A stretch of DNA of 64,000 nucleotides, from positions 2,542,001 to 2,606,000 of the forward strand of contig JAMXDE010000007.1 of NCBI GenBank assembly GCA_026770025.1, in the 5' to 3' direction. This document shows, in pieces, positions 2,182 through 27,503 of this stretch. The notes beneath the pieces were generated by a model. That model had not been told where the DNA came from. It searched no databases and saw only the letters and a program-made list of their open reading frames with translations. This DNA comes from Craspedostauros australis. Its lineage: Eukaryota > Bacillariophyta > Bacillariophyceae > Mastogloiales > Achnanthaceae. The position numbers were made by a program, and so were the translations under genes. Position 1 is the first letter of the stretch; each line of letters begins with the position of its first letter.

Positions 2182-2813
2182 GGAGCTGTGGGTACCTCTC
2201 AACACCAACGTCAAGCTTGACAATGGACGGAATCGTCTCCAGTACGTAAGCACATTGGAAAGCGGAATACCCTACGTGCGTGTCATAGAACACTGATACA
2301 AATGCAGGCCCACCAGTGCATACTCGTGGGCGTGTAGTGATGTGCCCAGCACGAGCGCGAATGCTTTTCGATTTGGCTATAATAGGTTATACCTTTGCTG
2401 CCTTTTCTTTTACATCCATGGTTTCTTGTTTGTTTGTTATTTTCTCTTGTTTGTGTTTTCACTTCATCTTCCTCTTGTTTCGGTTCGGTGTCCAGGTGAT
2501 TGCTTTCGCTGATCCGAGCCCGTTCATTCCTTCTTGTTGAACCGCATCCATCACCCATGATCCTCGCGCCTCCTTCGCCCGCCATCTTTCACCACAATAT
2601 CACGCTTGCAGCATGAATGGTTGCCACCCCTGCCCCCTTCTTCCCGCGGCCCAACCCAACAACATAGAGTAACACGAAACGATATGACACGACACAGCGC
2701 ATTCCCCAGCTTGACCATGAACACGGATCTGAATACTCGTACCTGCGCATACTTTAGAAGATGGAAGCACTTGAAATTGTTGATCACGATCATGACAAGG
2801 AGATGAGATGTGC
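2182..2813. other. Convergent 3' flanks
   Basis: Spacer between the ends of two convergent genes. It is T-rich around 2385-2500 and holds one TACTCGTA octamer (2734-2741). No coding region is supported. Confidence 0.5.
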
Positions 2814-4257
2814 TCAATAATGATGGTAGGGCTGGTAGCCACCACGTCCTCCGCGGTAGCCTCCTCTGTAACCGCCGCGTCCGCCACGGTAGCCACGGCC
2901 TCGACCACGGCCCCTTCCACGTCCGCCTTCACCCCCGCCGCGCTGGAATGCGGGGAGGTTGACGCGCTTGTGTGTGACCTTGAGCTGACGCCCCTTGAAG
3001 TCGGAACCGTTGAGCTTGACGGCATTTTCAACGGATGCTTCGGACTGATATTTCGGTAGAGGCGCATAAAGATGAAGACAAAGAGAGTGAGAGGCAAAAG
3101 ACCGCATGTGTGTGTCGTGGGACGACAAGCATATAGAAGGGAGCATTCAGAGGTGAGATGAAGGCATCCCATAAGTGTGTGCATGTATGGCAGATTGGTG
3201 AACAGAAGGCAACCCCAATCGGCAAGCCAAAGTTCAAATCATTAGTAGGAAGATGCAGAGGAAAGCAATCGATGAGCAATCGTTAGCAAGCACGAAATTT
3301 AGCATACAATCAGTGGGCGTTTGCGCGGTGAGTACGAGTATGCTACCCGCTTGCCTCTCGCCAATGATCGCAGAGTACATGATGCTGGAACGACCGCCAC
3401 TGGCATTCCCAACGTTGCTGTTTGGTGATGACGCAAAGTGATGCTCCTTGACGCAAGATGATCAGCGCAACTCTTGCAGATGTTGGTTTTGCGCATACTT
3501 CGACTGGCAATGGCGACAGCGATGACACGTAAACGATGATGAAGCTTCTTGCACTTGTGGTTGTGACCAAGACGATTTTGATTTGTGCAATCCCCTCCTT
3601 ACCCCAAATTCGATGTATGCGAAACCTTTGATGGGCATCATGGCAAGGTTGTTGTGTTGATTGAAAGACGAGAAATGATCGCAATGAAGGAAACAAATGA
3701 TCGCAATGAGTCATATGGAGTACTCGTAGAATGGATTAACCAAGGCATTAACCAAGGCACTGACCAAGTCATGGGACAACAGAACAAAACAAAACAGAAC
3801 CAGATGGAATAGAATGCAATAGAATACAATAGAATAGAATAAAGTACAATAGGAAAGACGAAGAAGACGTACCCTTCGGACGTCCCGAGTACTTGTCGCA
3901 CACGATCGTGACGCGCTCCACAGTTCCGCAGGCCTCAAAGTGCGACAGCAGCTCTTCCGGAGTGGCGGTGTAATCCACCTGTCCAACGTAAACGGAGTTC
4001 TTGTCCTTGGAGGCCGCATCCGTCGGCTTGGCCGCTGCAGCAGATCCCTTGGCACCAGCGGCATCCCCACCAGAGTCCTTCTTCTCCAGCTCCTCCGTCT
4101 CCTTGGTTATTCTGGCCGCCTCCGCCTCCATGCGCGCGATCTCTGCCTCGAGCTTCTCCACGTCATCTTCATCGTCTTCGTCTTCGGCCGCTGGCTCCGT
4201 GGTCTTCTCGGTCGGCTCCTCCTTCTTGGGTTCTTCTGTTGTTGCTTCTGCGCTCAT
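2814..4257 (-). CDS. Nuclear poly(A)-binding protein, PABPN1/Pab2 type (spliced, 3 exons)
   Basis: Exons on the minus strand: 4257-3873, 3625-3603 (23 nt) and 3044-2814, giving 212 residues. Introns are 247 and 558 nt with donors GTACGT and GTAAGG and acceptors AAAG and TCAG; phases match exactly. Order: acidic Glu/Lys-rich N-terminus, a coiled coil (about 30-75), one RRM (about 89-165) with RNP2 VYVGQVDY and RNP1 completed by the microexon (GFAYIEF), then an Arg-Gly-rich tail. This is the layout of PABPN1, which binds poly(A) tails in the nucleus and controls tail length; the RGG tail is a likely arginine-methylation target in the family. The large second intron could hide an alternative exon, though the RRM is complete without one. 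Confidence 0.85.
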
Positions 4258-14571: not shown

Positions 14572-17500
14572 CTATCGTCTTCCTTTGTTCTTCTTCTTGC
14601 CACCCTTCTTCTTCGACTTCTTTGGTGTTGGCTCACCATCCTGCTCACGGGTGTAGTCATCCTCGTCGGTGGCCTTGCGCTTGTCGCGGACGCTTTGTAT
14701 CTGCACAGTGCCAGTTCCAGTTCCGTCCAACGTCTTTCCGTCCAGCACCTTGCTCCACTGCTCATCGTTCCCCTTGATGGCGTACTGCATGATGGACTCG
14801 TCGTTCGCGACATCCGCACGCAGAGTCTTCACATTGTTCTTCTTCCTTCCGTTGGCGCCGTTGCTGCCATTGCCGTTGAATTCGGCCATGGCATCCTGGG
14901 CAGCGTCAGCCGCATCCTCATCCAACGTCTTGCCAGCAACGTCACGCATCTTGCTGACCTTGGCTTCCACCTTGGCACGTTTGTCGCCGCCGAGCAATGC
15001 CTTCTTCTCTTCGTCTTCAACAACACCGTTGAGGGCGATCGACACCTTCCGCATGGCCTTGTTGAACAACGCGAGGACTTGGTTGGCAGGGAGTCCCAGC
15101 TCCTTCGTCATGGAATCGACATCACGATTCTGCAATCCGATGCCACACAGCAACGCGGACTGGACGCTGGAGAGGTTGAAGGTGTCACCGAGACGGTTCA
15201 TGAAGAATAGTCGGGCCACTGTCGGCAATAGATCGGTGACGAGATGGTGATCACAAAGATTGCGACCGTACAACTCCAGGCGCTTCAGATCGTGATGTGT
15301 GATCATCTGCGTGAGCTCGTCGACCGTCACCTTGCTGTGCTTGATGCCAGAACGCTTGGCGTCGCCGGCCGATGCATCCGACGATGTCATGTTGTCCAGC
15401 GATGAGATGGCCAAGCGAATTGGCATGTCGCGGAATGCTCCACCGAGCAACGCCACGAATCGGCGCTTGGTGTCAGCGACGAAAGCATCCAGCCACGCAT
15501 CGTCAACCCCGGACTGCTTTGGCAGGGCGCGGATCATGATCGCAGAGTGTTCGCCCGTGAGCTCGTTCTTTGTTTGCCTCGTGTACAGGAGCTTCATGCC
15601 TGTGCGGTTCCAGAACTTGTGCAGCTGCTCCGTCAGGCCGAACGAAGTGCCGATCCAATCCAGCGCCGGTGCATCGACGTCAGTCAATGGAAGTAGCAAC
15701 GGCGGGAGCTCCTTTCGTGGTGCCACCTTTTCTTCTTGGATGCCACCCTTTTTCCCGTTTCCATTGGATTTGTTGCTGCTACCATTGGCATTGCCACCGC
15801 CGTAATCAGAGTCTTCGTCATCATCATCATCGCCATCATTATTCTCATCGTCGTTGTTGTCCTCGTCATCATCGTCCTCCATGTTATCCAAGGAGATCAT
15901 GTCGCCGTTGTAAAATCGATAGAGCTGTTCGATCGCTCTCGATCCATATCCCATGCCCTGCACCGATGGATGAACCGCAACTCGCACAAGACGAGCGCCG
16001 CTGAGCTGAGCAAACTTGGAATCGCCGAACTGCTGTGAGATCGTCCACGGGATGAGATCACCGGCGGACCGATGACCACGCGCCAGCTGCGCTTCGACGG
16101 CACGTCGTGAGATCTTTCCCTCCAAGGCGACCTGAACGACCGCCAGGATATCCGGCAATGAGTTCGCATCCTTCTCTGCGGCCGGTGACAGCAGAACGAA
16201 GACCTTGTGCGATGGTGCATCGGACAGCATTTGCAGATCGTTGGGAGTGTTCTTGTAGTGCGCGCTGGTGTAGAGGCCCATGAGCTTCTGCAGGAATGAT
16301 TCGGAGAGTTTGTGGTAGGAGAAGAGGGCGTCGCGGTCGACGCTGTACAATTCGCAATCGCCAGGCGCCGGTGCACCTCCCTGCAGCTTCAACTGCGCGC
16401 TGGACCCGCAGTCCAAGCAGAGGAGCTTGTTGAGCCAGCTCTCGATGCCATCACCTTCGGCGTAACGGATGGGCATGGAGAGCTCGATCTCGCGCAGCGG
16501 CCCCGTGAGGTTGTCGCCGGACGCATCCACAAGCGCGGCGGCCGCTGCCTGGTAGCGCTTGTCATGCGTCTTGGCCTGGCCCTTGTTGGATCTGGTTCCG
16601 GCGATGCTGTTGGCTGCCGCGTTGGCAACCGACAGCTCCGCCGACCGACCTCCCTTGCTTTCTCGCAGCTCCTTGATCAACTTCAGGCTGAGCGCACGTC
16701 CCGTGCCCTCGTAGCCGTTGACGGTGGAACTGACAAAGGTGAGACGGTCCGGCTGGTGCATGAGCGTCCGCACGATCGGCAATGGAATGGCTGCAGCCTC
16801 GTCGATGGCAACGATCTCCGCTGACGTGAACTTGTCCTTCTCATCCGGTGAGATGTACTGTATGACCTGCCTGTGGCTGCGATGCAGATGGATGGCGATG
16901 ATGCACTTCGTCTGCTCCCTGCCTGATGCATTATTGTACGTGATGTTGTAATCCATGTGCTCCTGGTACTTGAGCGCCTTCAGACCACGGCAAAGAAAGT
17001 CAAAGACGCTGACAAGATTCTCCGGTGCCGGTGCCGTGACTGCCAGGGTGGAGTAACCGAGCGAGATGGCGCCGGCGAGGCACAGACCCATGGCAGCTGA
17101 TTTGCCACGGCCACGAGCCGCCGTCATGGCAACTGTCGACTTGGTCGTCTTTTCGGAACACGCCTCCAGGAAGACGAGCAGCGCCTTGGCCTGGTCCAGG
17201 GTCTTGGCCAGGTCCACGAGCACCCCCACGTGCGGCGTGTCGATGAGGGATTGCTTGAGGTCCCTGAGTTCCGCCTCCTCGGGCGTCTCCCGCACGACGA
17301 CCTCGCCGGCTTCGCCCTTCTCCAACGCCTTGGGATTCAACCGCTGCAGGGTGCGCTTCGACAAGGGCAGCACGTTGAGCTCGTCATCGCAGACCAGACA
17401 ATTCTGACACTTGGCCAAGGAAAGGATGAATCGTTCGTTGAAGCGCGGCACGACGTCTCCCGCCGATTCCGTGCGGTAGCGTGCGTGAACGTCCATGCTC

Positions 17501-18000
17501 ATGGCGTAGAGCTGCTTGAGCGACTTGACGGTGCGCATGAGGAAGATGACCAGGCCGCCACCGCGCACCGTCTCGATGGTGCGGGCCATGAGGTTGGGCG
17601 TGAGGGCCTCAAAGTCCTGCAGCACCAGCATGCCGACGGTGGTGCCCAGCACGCGGTGGGAGTCCCTGTAGTAGCACCAGGAGATGTCCGTTCCCGACAC
17701 GAATAGCTCGAAGTTGTCGGCCTGATCCGCGAGGGAGGCGTTGCTGGAGAGTCCGCGCGATTTGTCGCGACGCAGCTTCTTCATGCGCTTCTTGCGATGC
17801 GTGGAGAAGCCTAGATCCTTCTTGTAGCACCACAGCACGTTGGGTCGTTGCTGGATGGTGGTGCGGGTGAGGATCTGATGCAGGTTGGGCACCTGATCCT
17901 TGCCATGATCGCCCACGAGCACCAGCATGGACCGCTCCCCCGTCACGACGCCGCGCTCGATCAAGGCGCGGACGCGGTCGTCCAACCGCTTGCGCACCAT
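14572..18000 (-). CDS. NAT10: RNA cytidine acetyltransferase NAT10/Kre33
   Basis: A 1142-residue single-exon protein that makes N4-acetylcytidine in 18S rRNA and some tRNAs in the nucleolus, using ATP and acetyl-CoA. Visible order: N-terminal TmcA-like region (RPNVLWCYKKDLGFSTHRKKR, about 50-75), helicase module with Walker A ARGRGKSA near 293 and Walker B IDEAAAIPLP near 398, GNAT domain with the acetyl-CoA loop QGMGYGSRA near 682, then the tRNA-binding region. A Lys/Arg-rich tail (KKSKKKGGKKKNKG) fits nucleolar location. Between GNAT strand and PRKELPPLLL lies an acidic Asp/Asn/Gly-rich linker (about 703-755), longer than usual at a naturally variable site. Length and motifs agree with the eukaryotic family, so the call is firm. 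Confidence 0.95.
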   Translation of the reverse strand: MVRKRLDDRVRALIERGVVTGERSMLVLVGDHGKDQVPNLHQILTRTTIQQRPNVLWCYKKDLGFSTHRKKRMKKLRRDKSRGLSSNASLADQADNFELFVSGTDISWCYYRDSHRVLGTTVGMLVLQDFEALTPNLMARTIETVRGGGLVIFLMRTVKSLKQLYAMSMDVHARYRTESAGDVVPRFNERFILSLAKCQNCLVCDDELNVLPLSKRTLQRLNPKALEKGEAGEVVVRETPEEAELRDLKQSLIDTPHVGVLVDLAKTLDQAKALLVFLEACSEKTTKSTVAMTAARGRGKSAAMGLCLAGAISLGYSTLAVTAPAPENLVSVFDFLCRGLKALKYQEHMDYNITYNNASGREQTKCIIAIHLHRSHRQVIQYISPDEKDKFTSAEIVAIDEAAAIPLPIVRTLMHQPDRLTFVSSTVNGYEGTGRALSLKLIKELRESKGGRSAELSVANAAANSIAGTRSNKGQAKTHDKRYQAAAAALVDASGDNLTGPLREIELSMPIRYAEGDGIESWLNKLLCLDCGSSAQLKLQGGAPAPGDCELYSVDRDALFSYHKLSESFLQKLMGLYTSAHYKNTPNDLQMLSDAPSHKVFVLLSPAAEKDANSLPDILAVVQVALEGKISRRAVEAQLARGHRSAGDLIPWTISQQFGDSKFAQLSGARLVRVAVHPSVQGMGYGSRAIEQLYRFYNGDMISLDNMEDDDDEDNNDDENNDGDDDDDEDSDYGGGNANGSSNKSNGNGKKGGIQEEKVAPRKELPPLLLPLTDVDAPALDWIGTSFGLTEQLHKFWNRTGMKLLYTRQTKNELTGEHSAIMIRALPKQSGVDDAWLDAFVADTKRRFVALLGGAFRDMPIRLAISSLDNMTSSDASAGDAKRSGIKHSKVTVDELTQMITHHDLKRLELYGRNLCDHHLVTDLLPTVARLFFMNRLGDTFNLSSVQSALLCGIGLQNRDVDSMTKELGLPANQVLALFNKAMRKVSIALNGVVEDEEKKALLGGDKRAKVEAKVSKMRDVAGKTLDEDAADAAQDAMAEFNGNGSNGANGRKKNNVKTLRADVANDESIMQYAIKGNDEQWSKVLDGKTLDGTGTGTVQIQSVRDKRKATDEDDYTREQDGEPTPKKSKKKGGKKKNKGRR

Positions 18001-19152
18001 CCTTGCGTTTGCAGTCGATTCTTTCTCCTATGATCCACGATGTTGTTGGCAATAATAGTATGGCACTATACTATATAATACTATACTGCAATATGCGGAT
18101 AGATGATGGACGCAATATCAGTCCTCGTCTCGGTTTGTTGCAGAGTATAGTACAGATTCGCACCACTCATTGTGTTCTGCCCACGAAAGCCGTAGCTCGT
18201 GAGCAACCAGCGCTTCGCGGAAATCGTGATGGGTTGGTTTGTCCTCACTTTTTTGCTTTCTCGCAGTTTCCGAGATGGTTGGGTTTTCATCCAACTGGTT
18301 ATGGGACTCTGTGATCGAATTGGTAGTCCATCGAGTCAATGGTGGGAGATTGCTTGTTTGGCGACTTGATTCACGAATATGTCTGCAACACAAGACCCGT
18401 CTGACCGGCGTATCGCTGCAGAGGCTTGGATACCGCCAAAAAATGACGATCTTGGTCCAGTTTGGTTGGTGTCGGAAACGGCACTTTGTTTCCTTTTCGT
18501 TGCGCTTGTTTTTGTTTTCCGGAAGACGCCCGCGAGTTTTTGTTCTGGTGTCTGTCATGGCCACAAACATTAGGAGGAGCAGAGGAGCGTCCGACAGAAT
18601 CGTATTTGCAGAATCGGTGTTGGCCCTTGGCTCGAGAGTGCTGGTATTGGAGTGTTACGGAAAGGCTTTGGTGGTTGATCTTTGTTGGTTAATGTTTGGT
18701 GGTTAATCTTTGGTGTTGGTGGAACATATAATAAAACAAGAGGAACAGCACCAGGAAGAACAGGACAGGTCGGACGGGCAGAACGCGGGGAGAGGACGCT
18801 AAGGTTGCGCGCAACCAACTGCTTCGATTGCAGCAGACGCCATCCTCCTTGGAACTGCTCCATTCTTGCTGGATATTGTGGGAAAGGACGCATACAATAC
18901 TGGACAGTCCATTGTCGATAAAGGATAGTCGATACTCGATAGTCCATAGTCGATCCTCCACACTGGATAGTCCATTGTCGACAGTCGACAGTCGACAGTC
19001 GATACTCCACACAAGAAGGCGCCCGGAGGCAGCAGTGAAGACGGAGGCAATCGCTGACTGCGACTGCTTGCCACTCAAAGAAAGCAGTGGCTTCATTCGA
19101 CACCGCCTCCCGTCGCAACAGCATCGGTACGAGCATCGATAGGAGTGTTGAG
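18001..19152. other. Divergent promoter region with GTCGA-rich repeats
   Basis: About 1.15 kb between divergent NAT10 and the SR-protein gene. Next to NAT10, at 18056-18095, is an ACTATACTATATAATACTA block, a candidate TATA/initiator for the leftward transcript. At 18893-19012 is a dense cluster of GATAGTC/GTCGACA words. A frame open at 18239-18706 shows no domain and is not called. Confidence 0.5.
18893..19012. repeat. Imperfect GTCGA/ATAGTC repeat cluster
   Basis: Short degenerate units (CGATAGTC, CATAGTCGAT, GTCGACA) alternate over about 120 nt. Includes overlapping GTCGAC palindromes near 18978-19000. It lies 140-260 nt before the SR-protein ATG and can fold into several small hairpins. 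Confidence 0.6.
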
Positions 19153-21606
19153 ATGTACCGCCACGCACCACCTCCGCTGCGAGGGAGTGGAGGCCGCCCA
19201 GGAGGAGGATCCCTTCCTCCGCCTCACTTGGCGTCTCGTGGGTCGGTGTCATCGCCTCCATCATCATCGTCGCCGCCCGAAGACTGCGCCCGGCCATCAC
19301 CCTACATGCAGAAGCCCAACGCTGACCGGAGGGCTCCTGACAAAGAACATGGGGGGTACTACGATTACCCTGCCGATGCTCACGCCGATCGGTCTGGAGA
19401 TGCGACTCGCAAGCCATCTCAGCCAATGCACCATCGAGGAGGACCAGCTCCTGGTTGGGGTGGACCGCGTGGCTCACATGCCCACCATCATCAGCAACCG
19501 CATCGACATCATCGTCATGCCCACCAACAACAGCACCCGCATGGACATGCGCATTCCCACGGGCACTCCTATCCGCATCGTCAACCGCAGCACCAGTCAC
19601 ACCACTCATCGCATCATGCATCATCGCACCAACAGCATCGCCACAAAGGCAGCTGCCAGGACCCAGCACGTCCATCGTCGTCCAGCAGGAGCAGATCATC
19701 GAGAGATCGGTCACGCACGAGATCCATGTCCAGATCGCGGTCCAGATCGCGCACTGCGTCTCCCCGAGGTTACCGCAACCGCCCTCGAAGTCACAGTCGT
19801 AGCCGTAGCCGCAGTCGTCCTAGATCGAGATCCAGGTCCGGTGGAGGATCACGGTCCCGCTCGAGGCATCGTGGTGACGAGCACAATCGCAGGGGCAGAA
19901 GCGCAAAACGTGACAATCAACGCAAGCACGCTCACAGCCACTCGCGGCCAAGGTCGCGCAGTAGGTCACGTTCACGATCACAATCTCGATCCAGGCCAAG
20001 ATCCACGTCGAGAACGAAGTCGGAGGCGAGGAGAAGATCCAGGTCTGTTTCCAATTCACGCTCCAGATCGAGGTCACGCTCCAGATCGCCCTCGCGGTCG
20101 AGATCGAGATCGCGCTCCAGATCCTACGATCGGCACCGTCGTCTCTCACCATCGCCCATCTCCCACTCCAAACGCAATCGATCGCACTCGTACTCATCCA
20201 GGGAATCGGATCGCGACGATTACTCCTCATCTGACGAATCGGTCCACTCCAGATCGTCAGCGTCATCGTCCGGCTCGGATGCATCGCGACGCACCAGGAA
20301 GCGCAGACGCACCCACTCCTCGCGGCATGGCAGCCGATCTTCCAAAGAACACCAACCGCCAAAGATTGATTCAGACTTCTCGCAGGATCAGCGCACCGTT
20401 CTGGTCGCGCAGCTTGTCATGCGCACCAAGGAACACAACCTTCACGACTTCTTCTCCAAGCACAACTGCGCCGTCGTCCAGGTCACCATGCTGTGCGACA
20501 GGGGGAAGGACCAGCACAAAGGACTCGCGCATGTAGAGATGGCATCGATGGAAGATGTCAAACGGGCGATCGCGCTCTCGGACAAGGCACCCGGCTTCCA
20601 ACGATTCCCCTTGCTCGTCAAGACCATGGAGGAAGGGAGAAAGGCCTTTCCAGAATCGCAAGGACCGACCAACGTCCTTGGTCCAAGACGCAACGCGCCA
20701 AGACGATTGGCTTCCATGCACAATGGCCCGCAGTCACTCGGGTGCCAGCAGGTGTACATCGGGAGCCTCGATCCTTCCGTCATGGAGGATCATCTGTTTG
20801 CCGTCTTTTCGCAGTTCGGGACGCTCAAGAAGGTGATGCTGCAGATCGATCCAGTGTCGCGCGTCAGCAAGGGGTACGCCTTCCTCGCATTCGTCAACCC
20901 AAAAGATGCCAACCTCGCCATCAAAACCATGGCCAACAAGCCCTTCCTTGGTCGTTCCCTCAGAACCGGTTGGGCCGGCCAAAAGTCCAACCACCCCAAC
21001 GCAGCTGCTTGCATATCCAACGAATTCCCGCCAGATGCATCCGACAGAGTCCAACGCGCAATGGCGACGCTGCAGCTCATCGCGGCCAAGCACAAGAATG
21101 GGACCAACGTGATCACGCCCTTGCGCAACTCCGCGCAGCCTTTCACGCCCGCTGGTTGGAATAAGGCGGTGCCGAAGAATGGACAGATGCCAGCAAGGAT
21201 CCCACCACCGCCGCCTCCTCCACGATTGCCGCCACCCCCACCACCTCCCCCGCCGCCGTTGCCCACAACCAATCGACTGCCGCCACCACCCCCGCCCATG
21301 GATCATATCACGGGCGCGCTGTCTCAAACAATCATGGTCTTCAACATGTACGACAGGGACAAGGAGACCGACGATGGTTGGGAACAGGATCTCAAGGAGG
21401 AATTCGACGATGAGGCGCACCGATTCGGCAAGTTGATTTCGTCTCGCGTCCTGTCGCATGTTCCAGGCGGCAAGATCTGCGCGCGCTTCGAAAAGGTTGA
21501 CGGGGCCCGCGCCTGCGCCACGAAATTTGCCGGTCGATGGTTCGATCGGCGCCAGCTGCGGGTCAAGTACCTCACAGAAGTGGAATGGATGGTCGCGATG
21601 AAATAG
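19153..21606 (+). CDS. RBM39/CAPER-like SR splicing factor
   Basis: The frame is open to 19087, but the first ATG is at 19153, giving 817 residues in one exon. Order: Pro/Gly/His-rich N-terminus, a long Arg-Ser domain (about 180-395), RRM1 (about 412-500, TVLVAQLVMRTKEHNL), RRM2 (about 533-611, VYIGSLDPSV and KGYAFLAFVNP), a linker with three proline runs (about 684-716), and a C-terminal U2AF-homology-type RRM (about 722-815) with GRWFDRRQL where RBM39 has its Arg-X-Phe signature. This is the RBM39/U2AF65 layout, so it likely helps choose 3' splice sites in the nucleus. The poly-proline linker is not typical of RBM39 and could bind WW or GYF domains. The RS stretch is encoded by repetitive CGATCC/AGATC codons, which opens a shadow frame. 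Confidence 0.85.
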   Translation: MYRHAPPPLRGSGGRPGGGSLPPPHLASRGSVSSPPSSSSPPEDCARPSPYMQKPNADRRAPDKEHGGYYDYPADAHADRSGDATRKPSQPMHHRGGPAPGWGGPRGSHAHHHQQPHRHHRHAHQQQHPHGHAHSHGHSYPHRQPQHQSHHSSHHASSHQQHRHKGSCQDPARPSSSSRSRSSRDRSRTRSMSRSRSRSRTASPRGYRNRPRSHSRSRSRSRPRSRSRSGGGSRSRSRHRGDEHNRRGRSAKRDNQRKHAHSHSRPRSRSRSRSRSQSRSRPRSTSRTKSEARRRSRSVSNSRSRSRSRSRSPSRSRSRSRSRSYDRHRRLSPSPISHSKRNRSHSYSSRESDRDDYSSSDESVHSRSSASSSGSDASRRTRKRRRTHSSRHGSRSSKEHQPPKIDSDFSQDQRTVLVAQLVMRTKEHNLHDFFSKHNCAVVQVTMLCDRGKDQHKGLAHVEMASMEDVKRAIALSDKAPGFQRFPLLVKTMEEGRKAFPESQGPTNVLGPRRNAPRRLASMHNGPQSLGCQQVYIGSLDPSVMEDHLFAVFSQFGTLKKVMLQIDPVSRVSKGYAFLAFVNPKDANLAIKTMANKPFLGRSLRTGWAGQKSNHPNAAACISNEFPPDASDRVQRAMATLQLIAAKHKNGTNVITPLRNSAQPFTPAGWNKAVPKNGQMPARIPPPPPPPRLPPPPPPPPPPLPTTNRLPPPPPPMDHITGALSQTIMVFNMYDRDKETDDGWEQDLKEEFDDEAHRFGKLISSRVLSHVPGGKICARFEKVDGARACATKFAGRWFDRRQLRVKYLTEVEWMVAMK

Positions 21607-22139: not shown

Positions 22140-24938
22140 TCAATCATCCAGATCGAACTTCTTCAGACGCTTGCGAAGGTTGATGATCGGTTGACGCAAT
22201 GCGATGGAATCGCTGAATCCCTTGTTGTGGTAGTGCAAGGTCGAATAGTACCGATGCTGCCGCAACAGATCCGTGCGTGTCACCATGCCCATCAGCTGCT
22301 TGGTCCCATCGGCCACCACGGGAATGCAACCGACATCGTTGGCCAGCAGCATCCCTTCTACCTGCGGCATGGTCATGCTCATCTCCGCGACTGTCACGTG
22401 CTGCTTCATCCAGCCCTTCACCGTCGAACCACGTTTGCGGCGTTCATCCGAAATCCGGTGGGCCTCTTCGATCTCTTCGTCTGACATGGGCTTGCCCTTC
22501 TTCTTGGCATCATCCTGCTGCTGCTGCAGACGGCGCACACGTTTCTGCTCCTTGTTCCACATGCGTTGCTTGGCCGCCGCGACTTCCTTGTACGATACCA
22601 AACCGATCACGTTGTTGTCGTCATCCACGACAGGCAGCGCCCGGACGTCGTACCGCGAGAAGAAGTCTTCCACTTGCGTCTCCGTCATGTCCGGCTTGAC
22701 ACTGAGGACTGGCGCTGTCATGAAGTCAGCCACCATGGCCTGTTGGTTCAGGCTAGTTTCCACGAGCTCCTCGACGAGTCCTTCCATAATGACATCGGCT
22801 TCGGCTTCATCGTTGAGCCGAACTGTGGCCGAGGCTGCCTTGGCGTGTCCGCCGCCGCCGAACTTTTCAAACAGCTTCCCCAAGTTGACCGCCTTCATGT
22901 TGATGCCGGCCTTGACGCGTCCGATGATGATGAGCGTCAGCGAACGCTTCTTCGTCGCGATGGAGCGACTTTGTTCGCGTTCCACATCCTTGGCGAATGC
23001 GACAAATTCCTCAAAATCGATCTTGCCATCGCCGTTGGTGTCCATGACGGAGATCAAGTTCTTGACGGTCTGGTCGGAGGCGATGATGCCCGAGGCATTC
23101 AGGGTCGCCGTGAGTTCGCGACGGTCGAGGTAGTCCGATTTGTCAGTGTCGCTGCGATCGAAGGCGGCTCTGAGCTTTCTGCGCAGGATGGCCTCGTCTT
23201 CTCCGTCGTATCCAACCGCGCTGGCCATGTCCTGGCCGTCGTCATCGAGCGTCGTGGTTCCGACGGGCTGCAGCAATCGGGACTGGATGCCCTCCGAGAC
23301 TTGCTTGCGTTTGGATCCCTTCTTGGAGCCACCGGAGCGCGCCTCGTAGACGATGCCGAGGAGGTAGACATCGGAGCTGCTCAGTTCGAGCGCATCCTGC
23401 GTGACTGCCGCCAGCCCATTGATGAAGCCGTCGGCCTTGAGCAGGACCGTCGACATGGTGACGCCGTGGATTTCGGTGGAGTTGGTGTGGATGAGCGCCT
23501 GCGTGAGAACGCCCTGCTGCTCGGCACTGAGGGAGGAATGGGCATGTTCGGCAATCGCGGTCTGGCTGGCGCCCTGCTCCATGAGCCATGCCAAAGCCGC
23601 GGCGTCGCGTGCCGTGGTGGAATCGTAGACCAACGACCCCGTATCAGCATGGATGCCAAGCGCCAGCAGGGTGGCCTCGGCCTCCGTCAGACCGTCATCG
23701 AGATCGGCATCTCTGAGCCGCTCGACGATGAGGGATGACACGGAGCCGACCTTGTCCACGACGTAGTCCGTGGCTTCGGGGATATCGGAGTCCGAGTCTA
23801 TGTGGTGATCCACGACGGTGACACGGTTGGCGTGCTCCAGCAGGGGTTCGGCAGGGCCGATGCGATCTCGACGCTGCGCATCCACCAGTCCCAGCCGGTT
23901 GAGACCCGAGAGATCGTCCGGCAGGGACTTCAAGGAACGGATGGGGAAGAGGTGCTTATGCAAGGCGAGGAAGCGATAGACGCTGGGATGCGCGCCGCGC
24001 GGCAGTACGACGAAGGTTGGAAGGTGGGAGGCGCTGTCGTACTGCGACTTGTCAACGCCCTCGTTTTGGAGTTTGTTGTTCTGGGCGGACCAGAGCTTGG
24101 CCAAGCCCACGGCGCTCGCCAAGGAATCGAAGTCCGCTGTGCAATGTGTGAGCACGACGTTGAACCCGCTCTGAGGCACGATTTGTGCTGGCTGTTCCTT
24201 GACGCGAGGTCGTTTGAAGAATTTCGGCTTCTTCGGCTTGTCCTCTTCTGCTCCCAGTTGTTGCTGCTGTTGCTGCTGTTGTTGCTGCTGCTGTTGATGA
24301 TGCTGTTCCTGTTGAGTTGCAGGAAGTGTTGTGGCGGATGCTGTTGTCGTATGTCCTGACGCGGATTGTTGTTCCACCGCGCCGGTACCATCGGCAGGAA
24401 CATCGATGATGTGGCCATTGCTATCTCTTCTGACTGCTGCTGCCCCGTTCGATTCCGATTCCGATAATGGCTCCACCTGGTCCGCGGGAACAGCCGAGAC
24501 GTGTCCCTCATCATCCGACACGATTTCCAAACCGTTGCCCTCGAGGAACTTGGCCGAGTATGTTTTCATTGTCTTTGGTATCGTTATGCCGTACTTGGAT
24601 CCAGCTTTGGAGTTGTTCGACGTCGTGGTATTCTGTTGCGTCTGTTGCTCAGGCACATCGACGACGTCCGCGTCTTCCATGTTCGAATCCGCCGCCGTCA
24701 TGCGAAGCATCGATCTTGGTTGGAATCGTCGGCTGCTGTTGGCTGGAGACAAACGTGAAGATCGTTTGTGGCTTGACGTCATGGCGGGCCGCAATGTGAT
24801 GAATGCTCGGTTGCATTTGAATGACGGCACGAAGGCATCGGCCATCCACAGTCCGCTGGTGCCTGACTGCGCTGACAGCATGCTGCAGCAGATGAGGTAG
24901 GCAGCATGGTTTCTCTTTCCGGCGCTGAAGACGGTCAT
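22140..24938 (-). CDS. Plastid-targeted DHH phosphoesterase with inserted EF-hands and twin CBS domains
   Basis: A 932-residue single-exon protein. The N-terminus has a weak hydrophobic segment then ADA-FVPS (about 33-40), suggesting plastid import. After a Gln-rich run (about 213-233) comes a DHH domain with complete motifs: THCTADFDSLAS near 260, LVDAQRRDR, VVDHHIDSDSD near 375, and GIHADTGSLVYDSTTARD. The DHHA1 part starts normally (HGVTMSTVLLK), is interrupted by two EF-hands (about 591-651; loops DTDKSDYLDRRE and DTNGDGKIDFEE), then resumes with VGRVKAG-like sequence and KFGGGGHAKAAS near 693. Two CBS domains follow (about 735-783, 840-895). The DHH-DHHA1-CBS-CBS order is that of bacterial CBS/DHH/poly(A)-polymerase fusions, minus the nucleotidyltransferase. 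Likely activity: hydrolysis of short RNA or a small nucleotide, tuned by calcium and adenosine ligands (inference). Confidence 0.85.
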   Translation of the reverse strand: MTVFSAGKRNHAAYLICCSMLSAQSGTSGLWMADAFVPSFKCNRAFITLRPAMTSSHKRSSRLSPANSSRRFQPRSMLRMTAADSNMEDADVVDVPEQQTQQNTTTSNNSKAGSKYGITIPKTMKTYSAKFLEGNGLEIVSDDEGHVSAVPADQVEPLSESESNGAAAVRRDSNGHIIDVPADGTGAVEQQSASGHTTTASATTLPATQQEQHHQQQQQQQQQQQQQLGAEEDKPKKPKFFKRPRVKEQPAQIVPQSGFNVVLTHCTADFDSLASAVGLAKLWSAQNNKLQNEGVDKSQYDSASHLPTFVVLPRGAHPSVYRFLALHKHLFPIRSLKSLPDDLSGLNRLGLVDAQRRDRIGPAEPLLEHANRVTVVDHHIDSDSDIPEATDYVVDKVGSVSSLIVERLRDADLDDGLTEAEATLLALGIHADTGSLVYDSTTARDAAALAWLMEQGASQTAIAEHAHSSLSAEQQGVLTQALIHTNSTEIHGVTMSTVLLKADGFINGLAAVTQDALELSSSDVYLLGIVYEARSGGSKKGSKRKQVSEGIQSRLLQPVGTTTLDDDGQDMASAVGYDGEDEAILRRKLRAAFDRSDTDKSDYLDRRELTATLNASGIIASDQTVKNLISVMDTNGDGKIDFEEFVAFAKDVEREQSRSIATKKRSLTLIIIGRVKAGINMKAVNLGKLFEKFGGGGHAKAASATVRLNDEAEADVIMEGLVEELVETSLNQQAMVADFMTAPVLSVKPDMTETQVEDFFSRYDVRALPVVDDDNNVIGLVSYKEVAAAKQRMWNKEQKRVRRLQQQQDDAKKKGKPMSDEEIEEAHRISDERRKRGSTVKGWMKQHVTVAEMSMTMPQVEGMLLANDVGCIPVVADGTKQLMGMVTRTDLLRQHRYYSTLHYHNKGFSDSIALRQPIINLRKRLKKFDLDD

Positions 24939-26393
24939 TGTTCTTCTGGCTGTTGTTGCCGTTCACCTTGTTGCGAAGGTTGATGTGACGATTGATGTTG
25001 GTCTCGTTGGTCTGTTTGGGCCCAAGTTGGCATGGATTGGTTTGGCTCCGATCGAATCAATTTGCCACCCAATGAAATGAAACGAAATGGAAGAATTAGG
25101 CGAAAGAGCCGAGGGACGCTCAAGTGCGCACAGATCAAGTCAAGGCTGATGCAGACGCCCTCGATAGCGATCAATTGAATTAATCGATAGATGGATGCAG
25201 TGGTGGATGTAGTGGTGGATGAATGACCTCTCAACGCTTCAGTCTCATAGATTGTGACGTTCCGTTTGATGGATCAAGTGATGTGTTGATGTGTTGATGA
25301 ATTGACGTGATGACGTGATGACGTGCTGATGGACGGAAGAATGGATGATGGGTTGATTGGGTTGATTGGATTGATGCAAAGATTCACAACAGATGTCTGT
25401 GATGAGACGCAGCACCTTTCGATCTCAACAATCTCGCGATGATCGGGTGGATACTTCGTCGCTTGCTTCCCTGCTTCCGTGCTTCCTTCTATCTCGCTCT
25501 CTCTTGGCTTCACCGTCTTTCTCCCTGCGTTCGCAATGCGCTTCCGGTCGGACAAGGCCCTTGGGCGAGATGGTACCACTACTACTATGGTACGAATGCT
25601 CGTGTGGGAGCTCTGCTAACGACCTCTCGACAACAAGATGCGCGCGTGGCCTTCGGGTTGGTCGATGAGCACGAGTATCAACCAGCGTACGTATTCGAAG
25701 CTGTTGCCTTGTGTGGTACTACTACGGCTATGATACCTCGTACTCCCTCGGATGCTGGTGAATTGTGGTGAATCGAGGCGAATTGTGGTTGGAAGAGGTG
25801 TCACCAAATGAGGCGCAAACAGTTTCGCGTTCATCCCTCCGTCATCAATGTCCATCGTGGGTGTGTGCCTCACCGTGTCATTTCGTGCCATCCCTCCCTT
25901 TGTTGGTTGGTGACTTGGCGTGTTCTTTGTCACGGAGATGCCGTCGTTCTCATTTCTCGTCTGTCGTGCGTCCGTTTGTCACGCGTTTCTTCACCGCTGT
26001 CCAGCATTCTATTTTTGTTGTGTAGACATATCCGGCACGTTTGCAGAACCTGGTCCGCTCCAATCGTGTTGGTGGTGATCGAAAAACGTCAGACGGCGAT
26101 TGACGAGGCGAGAGAGGGTTTGTTGGCGCGGAGGCGTCATCGGTCACATGTTGAATCAGAATCACCACTTTGGTCAACACATCACCGCCATCGGCTCAGT
26201 CAACGCCTCCCTCCCTCTGCGTTTGTCGGCCTCTGCGCCACTGAAAAAGGATCTGCAAGCAGAGCAGTGGTATCAACCTTGTCATTTCATAAATTGAATT
26301 CAATTGCATGAAATTGCACAGCACAGCGCCACACTCTGCTCGTCTACCCTGTGCATCTTCATTAGCATACTCGCCCTTCGGTCAACAGTCAAG
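24939..26393. other. Divergent promoter region
   Basis: About 1.45 kb without a supported gene. Contains GATGTGTT/GTGATGAC short repeats at 25276-25335 and a TACTACTACTATGGTACGA block at 25577-25595. Scattered short frames on both strands have no domain. Confidence 0.45.
25276..25335. repeat. Short tandem GATGTGTT / GTGATGAC repeats
   Basis: Two to three imperfect copies each of GATGTGTT and TGACGTGA in about 60 nt, several hundred bases upstream of the DHH gene. TGACGT cores resemble bZIP sites, but this is only a resemblance. Confidence 0.4.
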
Positions 26394-27503
26394 ATGGTTC
26401 GATTCGTTTTCCTTGCAATGGTCAGTGCCTCCTTGGTGCTCAGCGGCGACGCATTCTCGCAGCAACGGATGCAGTCGCAGTCACAATCGGCATCGGCATT
26501 CTCACGTGTGCGTGAAAGCATCACCGATGGTAGAACGGTCATGAATGCCAAGCCAGTCCGAGCCAACGACAACAGCGACATCAAAAGCATCAACAATGAT
26601 AGGGACGCCGACGACAGCTCTCATCTGTCACGCCGAGACTTTGGTCAAGCTGCTGGGGTTGTTTTAGCGGGTGCATTGGTCGGATTGCCATCCATGGCAT
26701 CGGCAGGCATCGACGTCGCTGGCCTGCGGGTGGAGGGAGCCGCACCTTCCAACCCAACCATCTCGTCGCAGCTCAAGGCCTTCGATGGATCCGCTTCATC
26801 GCGCATCCAAGAAATCAAGGCAGGCGCAGCATCGCCATCGAAAGCGTACGACGTCATCAAGCCCAGTGCGGTTACGGCTGGAGATCCGATCGGCATTGCC
26901 ACCTGGGCCTTCCGTGCCTCGCCAGGATACCTGCCGCAGCTCACCACCGCGGGCGCGTTCAAGAACCTGTACCGCTGCAACGACCAAATCGTCGCACCGG
27001 AATCGACAGGCCGCCGTGCGCTCAGCGTGCAGTTCGAATTTCCATCCGATTGGCTGCAGCTGGATCGCCAGACCGGCGGATTGCAGTACGTCGATCAGCG
27101 CAATGGCGACAAGCTCTATCTGTTGCGCGCGCGTCTCCCGGCCGACACGACGTTGGAGACGGTGCCCAAGGCCTACATCGGCGAGGCCCTCTTCAACCCG
27201 CAAGGGTCCATCGCGCGCACTGGCAACACGATCGAGGAATACAAGGTGTCCACCGCGCAGGTGCTGTCGGACTGTCCTGCCGGAACCTGCTCCGTCCGAA
27301 GACGATTCAAGGTCAAGTACGCCACCGTCACTGGCAACGGGCTGCGCGTGGAGCGCCGGGGATTGGTGGATGCCTTCGAGGTGCCCAACTCGGATACCAT
27401 CGTCATGCTCGTCACGTCGTCGAACGCCATCAAATTCGATGCCAAGAACAGTTTGGAACGCGAAACGGTAGAGAATATCGTTCGGTCCTTCGCCGTGGAG
27501 TAG
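26394..27503 (+). CDS. Thylakoid lumenal PsbP-like domain protein
   Basis: A 369-residue single-exon protein. I chose ATG 26394 because it begins a clean signal peptide (MVRFVFLAMVSASLVLSGDA) ending at F-SQQ, an ASAFAP-type junction. A second targeting element follows at about 79-104: SRRDFGQAAG, a hydrophobic stretch, and PSMASA-GID. This is a twin-arginine lumen signal with an AxA cleavage site, so the mature protein should be lumenal. The mature part contains LSVQFEFPSDWLQLDR and NGDKLYLLRARLP, resembling the start of the PsbP fold, and ends with ETVENIVRSFAVE as PsbP-like proteins do. Family members aid photosystem II or NDH assembly. The localisation is strong; the PsbP assignment is moderate, since similarity is by eye only. 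Confidence 0.7.
   Translation: MVRFVFLAMVSASLVLSGDAFSQQRMQSQSQSASAFSRVRESITDGRTVMNAKPVRANDNSDIKSINNDRDADDSSHLSRRDFGQAAGVVLAGALVGLPSMASAGIDVAGLRVEGAAPSNPTISSQLKAFDGSASSRIQEIKAGAASPSKAYDVIKPSAVTAGDPIGIATWAFRASPGYLPQLTTAGAFKNLYRCNDQIVAPESTGRRALSVQFEFPSDWLQLDRQTGGLQYVDQRNGDKLYLLRARLPADTTLETVPKAYIGEALFNPQGSIARTGNTIEEYKVSTAQVLSDCPAGTCSVRRRFKVKYATVTGNGLRVERRGLVDAFEVPNSDTIVMLVTSSNAIKFDAKNSLERETVENIVRSFAVE

Follow-up and report, generated by a model that had tools for sequence, protein, structure and literature searches.

A diatom DHH-DHHA1 protein with an EF-hand pair inserted into DHHA1 and a diverged first CBS domain

Introduction

What could an EF-hand pair do inside the catalytic fold of a bacterial-type phosphoesterase, and from where does such a protein descend? 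These questions are raised by a gene of the diatom Craspedostauros australis, located at 22140-24938 on the reverse strand of a 64,000-nucleotide stretch (the window) of contig C5 (JAMXDE010000007.1), in an assembly of 74.8 Mb and 90 contigs. A sequence-only reading of this gene described a DHH phosphoesterase whose DHHA1 region is interrupted by EF-hands and followed by two CBS domains, and proposed that it stems from a bacterial fusion, has lost a nucleotidyltransferase and is gated by both Ca2+ and adenosine nucleotides in the plastid. Coordinates below refer to the window and, unless indicated otherwise, to its reverse strand.

Domain architecture and the EF-hand insert

The protein has 932 amino acids, and the anatomy described in the sequence-only reading is confirmed by Pfam and by inspection of the motifs. 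DHH (PF01368, residues 261-429, 23652..24158, 8.6e-9) and an EF-hand pair (EF-hand_7, PF13499, residues 587-649, 22992..23180, 7.1e-15) are matched above cut-off, and CBS (PF00571) is matched twice (6.8e-21). The match to DHHA1 (PF02272, residues 670-714, 1.1e-4) reaches 23.0 bits and lies below the cut-off of 25.9, as does that of an uninterrupted homologue from Pseudanabaena (24.1 bits). Alignment and the predicted structure place the EF-hand pair between the two strands of a single DHHA1 hairpin: the first half of DHHA1 (residues 472-532, 23343..23525) ends in the first strand (524-532 in the model), and the second half (residues 667-720, 22779..22940) starts with the second strand (667-675) and contains FGGGGH, so that G694GGGH698 is restored in frame beyond the EF-hands, as had been noticed before. 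The insert covers approximately residues 533-666 (22941..23342); the span of residues 515-705 comprises 191 amino acids here, compared to 53-119 (median 60.5) across 68 bacterial homologues. Downstream follow CBS1 (residues 736-789, 22572..22733), a linker of some 43 residues, charged and helical (approximately 794-836, 22431..22559; model helices 783-813 and 820-836), which is absent from the bacterial rows shown in the alignment, and CBS2 (approximately residues 838-896, 22251..22427), delimited by comparison with family NF041569.

Both predicted Ca2+ loops, DTDKSDYLDRRE (residues 597-608, 23115..23150) and DTNGDGKIDFEE (residues 633-644, 23007..23042), fit the EF-hand consensus, with complete ligand positions in each hand of the pair. 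When the insert was shuffled 20,000 times, one EF-hand match appeared in 43 shuffles and two matches in none, and the model folds four helices at residues 579-660. The two loops with correct ligand spacing inside DHHA1 are thus upheld by Pfam, alignment, model and shuffling. By sequence, the closest solved relative of the pair is radial spoke protein 7, followed by proteins of the troponin C, calmodulin and centrin types. The match to radial spoke protein 7 covers residues 510-654 with the whole protein as query and 569-652 with the region alone, i.e. the EF-hand pair and about 18 preceding residues, and we regard it as a similarity of EF-hands. No clear donor of the module was found in the diatom's own genome; the best outside match is a calmodulin-like frame (L008), 39% identical over 64 residues. 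In one genome drawn from the cyanobacterial phylum (L140, 451-3461), two separate frames encode the DHH-CBS-nucleotidyltransferase, with the break near the same DHHA1 hairpin.

Retention of the catalytic core

The protein possesses the DHH-family motifs H265-x3-D269-F-D271, D353, D377-H-H and D432 in DHH in addition to the GGGGH of DHHA1, and all 14 motif residues checked in the two domains are kept. The claim that all DHH motifs are present was accurate: the eight DHH motif residues, which we take to form the metal site, are invariant in 37 bacterial rows, and all eight occur here. By its complete DHH metal-site motifs and the GGGH of DHHA1, the protein belongs to the DHH-DHHA1 phosphoesterases.

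Retention was also quantified over invariant positions, defined as those with a constancy of 95% or more in 38 cyanobacterial-type rows and counted in ten control rows, six divergent (L050, L108, L141-L144) and four cyanobacterial-type. The diatom protein retains 40 of 48 invariants in DHH, 13 of 14 in DHHA1, 16 of 22 in CBS2 and 10 of 31 in CBS1. Five outgroup rows (L108 from a draw of Schekmanbacteria genomes and four divergent rows from the cyanobacterial draw) retain 24-33 of 48 and 5-10 of 14 in DHH and DHHA1, each below the diatom protein; L050, with 43 of 48 in DHH, is the only divergent control above it.

In the AlphaFold model the DHH, DHHA1 and CBS folds are normal around the insert. 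DHH superimposes on family II pyrophosphatase at 2.8 Å over 184 residues, the whole DHHA1 on the C-Ala domain of alanyl-tRNA synthetase at 2.2 Å over 119 residues, and the CBS pair on MJ0100 at 1.5 Å over 124 residues.

Ancestry

The nearest curated family is NF041569, the A-adding tRNA nucleotidyltransferases (2.7e-40), where the protein scores 138 bits against a cut-off of 1440 bits, a value that the full bacterial fusions found here likewise fail to reach. It shares the DHH-DHHA1-CBS-CBS order of this family and lacks the C-terminal nucleotidyltransferase domain (PF01743), and therefore looks like a descendant of an NF041569-type fusion and not like a member. A scan of plasmids returned one record, the Pseudanabaena homologue (DHH-DHHA1-CBS-CBS-PolyA_pol, 34% identical); with a Schekmanbacteria query it returned two records, one of which matches the CBS part alone. 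The viral contigs scanned contained no relatives. A genome scan found 73 loci. Judged by record title, 71 of them belong to cyanobacteria, and the exceptions derive from metagenome-assembled genomes (MAGs) of Chloroflexaceae (L013) and Schekmanbacteria (L050). The scan is biased to cyanobacteria because its patterns were peptides common to the diatom protein and one cyanobacterium. In the cyanobacterial phylum draw of 194 genomes, 80 have a match at 1e-10, in 78 of these within a frame of at least 860 amino acids; the other 114 show no match at this level. Downstream, 63 of 68 loci have the nucleotidyltransferase motif RRDF[TS]-N; of the remaining five, L041 and L054 exceed 950 amino acids but lack this exact motif, and the last three stop short.

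A tree of DHH-CBS proteins had been proposed as a check. Its DHH-DHHA1 part, with the insert removed, joins the diatom protein to the cyanobacterial rows and L050 with support of 100/99 against the five outgroup rows only. Approximately unbiased (AU) tests do not distinguish a branching point within the cyanobacteria from one next to them, either with this part (AU p 0.345) or in the full-length tree (AU p 0.307), in which the diatom protein forms a long branch. Without L050, support for the cyanobacterial side is 45/78, and the DHH-DHHA1 tree came with a software warning that the long branches of L108 and the diatom protein meet. L050 itself (2380-4149) groups with the diatom protein and the cyanobacteria, away from L108 of its own phylum draw, which suggests transfer, contamination or a long-branch effect. 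Taken with the family match, the Pseudanabaena homologue and the genome scan, the tree bears out descent from a DHH-DHHA1-CBS-CBS-nucleotidyltransferase fusion, and a cyanobacterial-type origin is supported by these comparisons.

CBS domains and the missing nucleotidyltransferase

Pfam finds no PF01743 match in the 932 amino acids, so that the proposed loss of the nucleotidyltransferase holds for the protein itself. The genome encodes two separate genes with a PolyA_pol head (PF01743). Gene fission was considered as their source; when both were compared by BLASTP with bacterial nucleotidyltransferases of the fused and the stand-alone kind, fission could not be told from an independent origin. 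The second of these genes (L006, 316-2676 on the reverse strand of contig C18) starts with a hydrophobic stretch and SSAFLGT, and perhaps encodes a CCA enzyme of the plastid in whose presence the fused nucleotidyltransferase could be dispensed with. Two other DHH matches in the genome are both DHH-DHHA2, the arrangement of family II inorganic pyrophosphatases and exopolyphosphatases, which have DHH in common with the present protein and DHHA2 instead of DHHA1 as second domain.

The two CBS domains form the paired fold of a Bateman module, and their fates differ. In CBS1, the six divergent controls retain 18-26 and the four cyanobacterial-type controls 29-31 of the 31 invariants of which the diatom protein keeps 10; the divergence of CBS1 is therefore out of proportion to that of the other domains. 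It may formerly have served the lost nucleotidyltransferase, or its ligand may have changed. The nucleotide site of CBS domains carries the motif G-h-x-S/T-x-x-D (h, hydrophobic), which reads GMVTRTD in CBS2 and GLVSYKE, with E replacing D, in CBS1. The adenosine-nucleotide gating envisaged in the sequence-only reading is hypothetical: CBS2 keeps its site motif, while CBS1 has lost most of the residues that are constant in the lineage. Dual gating by Ca2+ and adenylates is consequently unproven.

Possible mechanism and alternative explanations

The architecture suggests that the enzyme may be controlled by Ca2+. In this scenario a nuclear gene would derive from a cyanobacterial-type DHH-DHHA1-CBS-CBS-tRNA-nucleotidyltransferase fusion, and its product, probably located in the plastid, would have lost the nucleotidyltransferase and retained the DHH-DHHA1 phosphodiesterase. 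Likely substrates would be short RNA oligomers, linear dinucleotides (pApA) or pAp, cleaved with two Mn2+ or Mg2+ ions. Structures of relatives have the substrate held between DHH and DHHA1, which open and close. In NrnA the two domains are 11.9 Å apart in the bound and 19.3 Å in the unbound state and are thought to pinch the substrate (available text of PMC12709177). Since the predicted Ca2+ binder takes the place of the DHHA1 hairpin tip, Ca2+ would make DHHA1 more rigid, shift its position or bring in a partner, and thereby change this pinch. An adenosine ligand may still be bound by CBS2, and CBS1 probably diverged because the nucleotidyltransferase that it served is gone. That the protein is an active phosphodiesterase on which Ca2+ has some influence falls, in our estimation, only a little short of an even chance. 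The more specific proposal of a plastid nanoRNase or linear-dinucleotide phosphodiesterase, with a clamp worked directly by Ca2+ through the EF-hands in DHHA1 and a CBS site that adds adenylate control, is tentative and rather doubtful in its full form.

Several observations weigh against this proposal. The 16 of 22 invariants retained in CBS2 are no better than the 11-17 of the divergent controls. Position 6 of EF loop 1 is D, where G is usual. The EF-hand part was modelled without aligned relatives, with a predicted local distance difference test score (pLDDT, in blocks of ten) of 49-75, and the preceding linker reaches 34-63; the predicted template modelling score (pTM) is 0.58. Because joint fits of DHH and DHHA1 yield root mean square deviations (rmsd) of 13-17 Å, the placement of these domains relative to each other is unsafe, and the structure prediction suggested as a check does not show the EF-hands to hinge DHHA1. 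In the DHH-DHHA1 tree, support of 99/88 joins the diatom protein to L050, the row from the Schekmanbacteria MAG, possibly through a long-branch effect; because of this pairing a direct origin from the plastid endosymbiont is not shown. Finally, cyanobacteria often have insertions in this loop, and these look low-complexity, so that activity would not necessarily be affected by an insert.

This last point leads to the strongest alternative, which we consider quite possible: the EF-hand pair binds Ca2+ without control of catalysis, either as a tolerated insert or as a module for docking or targeting to a protein or membrane. On the one hand, this loop is longer by as much as about 66 residues in cyanobacterial homologues, the additions being low-complexity as judged by eye, and the model attaches the insert through a linker of low confidence. 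On the other hand, the consensus ligand positions are kept in both loops, which suggests selection for Ca2+ binding, and DHHA1 itself belongs to the substrate clamp according to the available text of PMC12709177.

A site of action outside the plastid, in the cytosol, the lumen of the endoplasmic reticulum or the mitochondrion, is rather unlikely. Bipartite plastid leaders of secondary algae consist of a signal peptide, an AXA-F junction and an acid-poor transit segment, a pattern that the N-terminal leader (residues 1-82, 24693..24938) fits: a hydrophobic stretch (maximum 12-residue hydropathy 1.79), the junction ADA/FVPS, and a basic, serine- and threonine-rich stretch at residues 36-82 (47 residues; 0 acidic, 10 basic, 12 S/T). 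Thus a signal plus transit peptide for plastid targeting is plausible from composition, and the cyanobacterial-type ancestry speaks for the plastid as well. However, the signal-plus-AXA combination alone occurs in 1483 of 20,000 shuffled N-termini, a start at M77 or M80 would drop the leader, and the leader might serve a different compartment. The plastid assignment of the sequence-only reading is therefore plausible at most and is its weakest claim. A neighbouring gene (26304-27503, forward strand) without a Pfam family has a GDAF-type leader and, by eye, a twin-arginine lumen-type signal, and looks thylakoid-lumenal.

The loss of enzyme activity, with the protein left as a scaffold that senses Ca2+ and nucleotides, would agree with the diverged CBS1 and the missing fused nucleotidyltransferase, but it is improbable given that DHH and DHHA1 retain more invariants than any outgroup row and every motif residue checked. 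An artefact of assembly, annotation or splicing that fuses two genes is very improbable, even though the architecture was examined in one genome and from DNA alone, as the reading frame is continuous, DHHA1 resumes in frame with its GGGGH, and the insert resembles its surroundings in codon usage. The frame runs from an ATG to the stop at 22140-24938 without internal stops; GC content at third codon positions is 0.77 in the insert compared to 0.80 in the DHH and 0.75 in the DHHA1 part, and the codon bias of the insert resembles that of both. No donor of the GTRAG type, the type scanned for, was found in the frame. Because of this similarity and the absence of a GTRAG donor, splicing-out of the EF-hand segment is unlikely; single frame, Pfam domains, motifs and EF loop matches point in the same direction, and as far as DNA can show the frame through the insert is coding sequence.

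Between leader and DHH lies a low-complexity region with a long glutamine run (residues 83-254, 24177..24692; weak codon bias of 0.024 at residues 79-254). On the opposite strand, 22566-23738 (forward) is an open frame of 390 codons, which probably arises from codon usage that is rich in GC. Other neighbours are an RNA cytidine acetyltransferase of the NAT10/TmcA type in one frame (14572-18000, reverse strand) and a serine/arginine (SR)-rich protein (19087-21606, forward strand) that contains two RRM stretches as well as runs of proline.

Comparison with known systems

The fused DHH-DHHA1-CBS-nucleotidyltransferase architecture is already published; the divergence of CBS1 is a new observation here. 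Bacterial DHH-DHHA1-CBS-CBS fusions with tRNA nucleotidyltransferase/poly(A) polymerase (NF041569; PMC8208693, available text) share the domain order, DHH motif residues, GGGGH and 32-39% identity with the diatom protein, which differs in the lack of the nucleotidyltransferase, the EF-hand pair in the DHHA1 hairpin, the extra charged CBS linker, the diverged CBS1 and the N-terminal leader. The same text reports that the CCA enzyme of Thermotoga maritima carries Nrn and CBS domains that are dispensable for CCA addition. Among enzymes of the NrnA/GdpP/DhhP type, NrnA and NrnB stand alone and GdpP has PAS-GGDEF (available text of PMC12709177), whereas the diatom protein has CBS domains and the EF-hand insert.

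A parallel in principle is CRSH, a Ca2+-activated plastid ppGpp synthetase (available text of PMC6881373): it is likewise a bacterial-type nucleotide enzyme of the plastid that depends on Ca2+ through EF-hands, features which for the diatom protein are predicted as regards location and the role of Ca2+. Nevertheless, CRSH is an unrelated enzyme with EF-hands at the end of the protein and not inside the catalytic fold, and in the same text the RSH4a and RSH4b of Phaeodactylum are given without EF-hands. A literature search of open-licence papers found no protein that combines DHH and EF-hands, the one paper listed (PMC2935356) being concerned with scoring models to judge by its title and abstract, nor did it find a pyrophosphatase/EF-hand precedent; the DHH-EF-CBS architecture may already be present, unremarked, in databases of eukaryotic proteins.

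Implications

If the proposed control by Ca2+ is true, the diatom plastid would have a Ca2+ input to the turnover of RNA or nucleotide messengers that parallels CRSH yet is independent of it. With the EF-hand module inside the catalytic fold, such a coupling is directly testable on one recombinant protein. The domain comparison also hints at the fate of a CBS regulator after the loss of its partner enzyme, in which one half diverges and the other is kept. As a second, unrelated case beside CRSH, the protein would suggest a repeatable route by which nucleotide enzymes inherited from bacteria acquire EF-hands.
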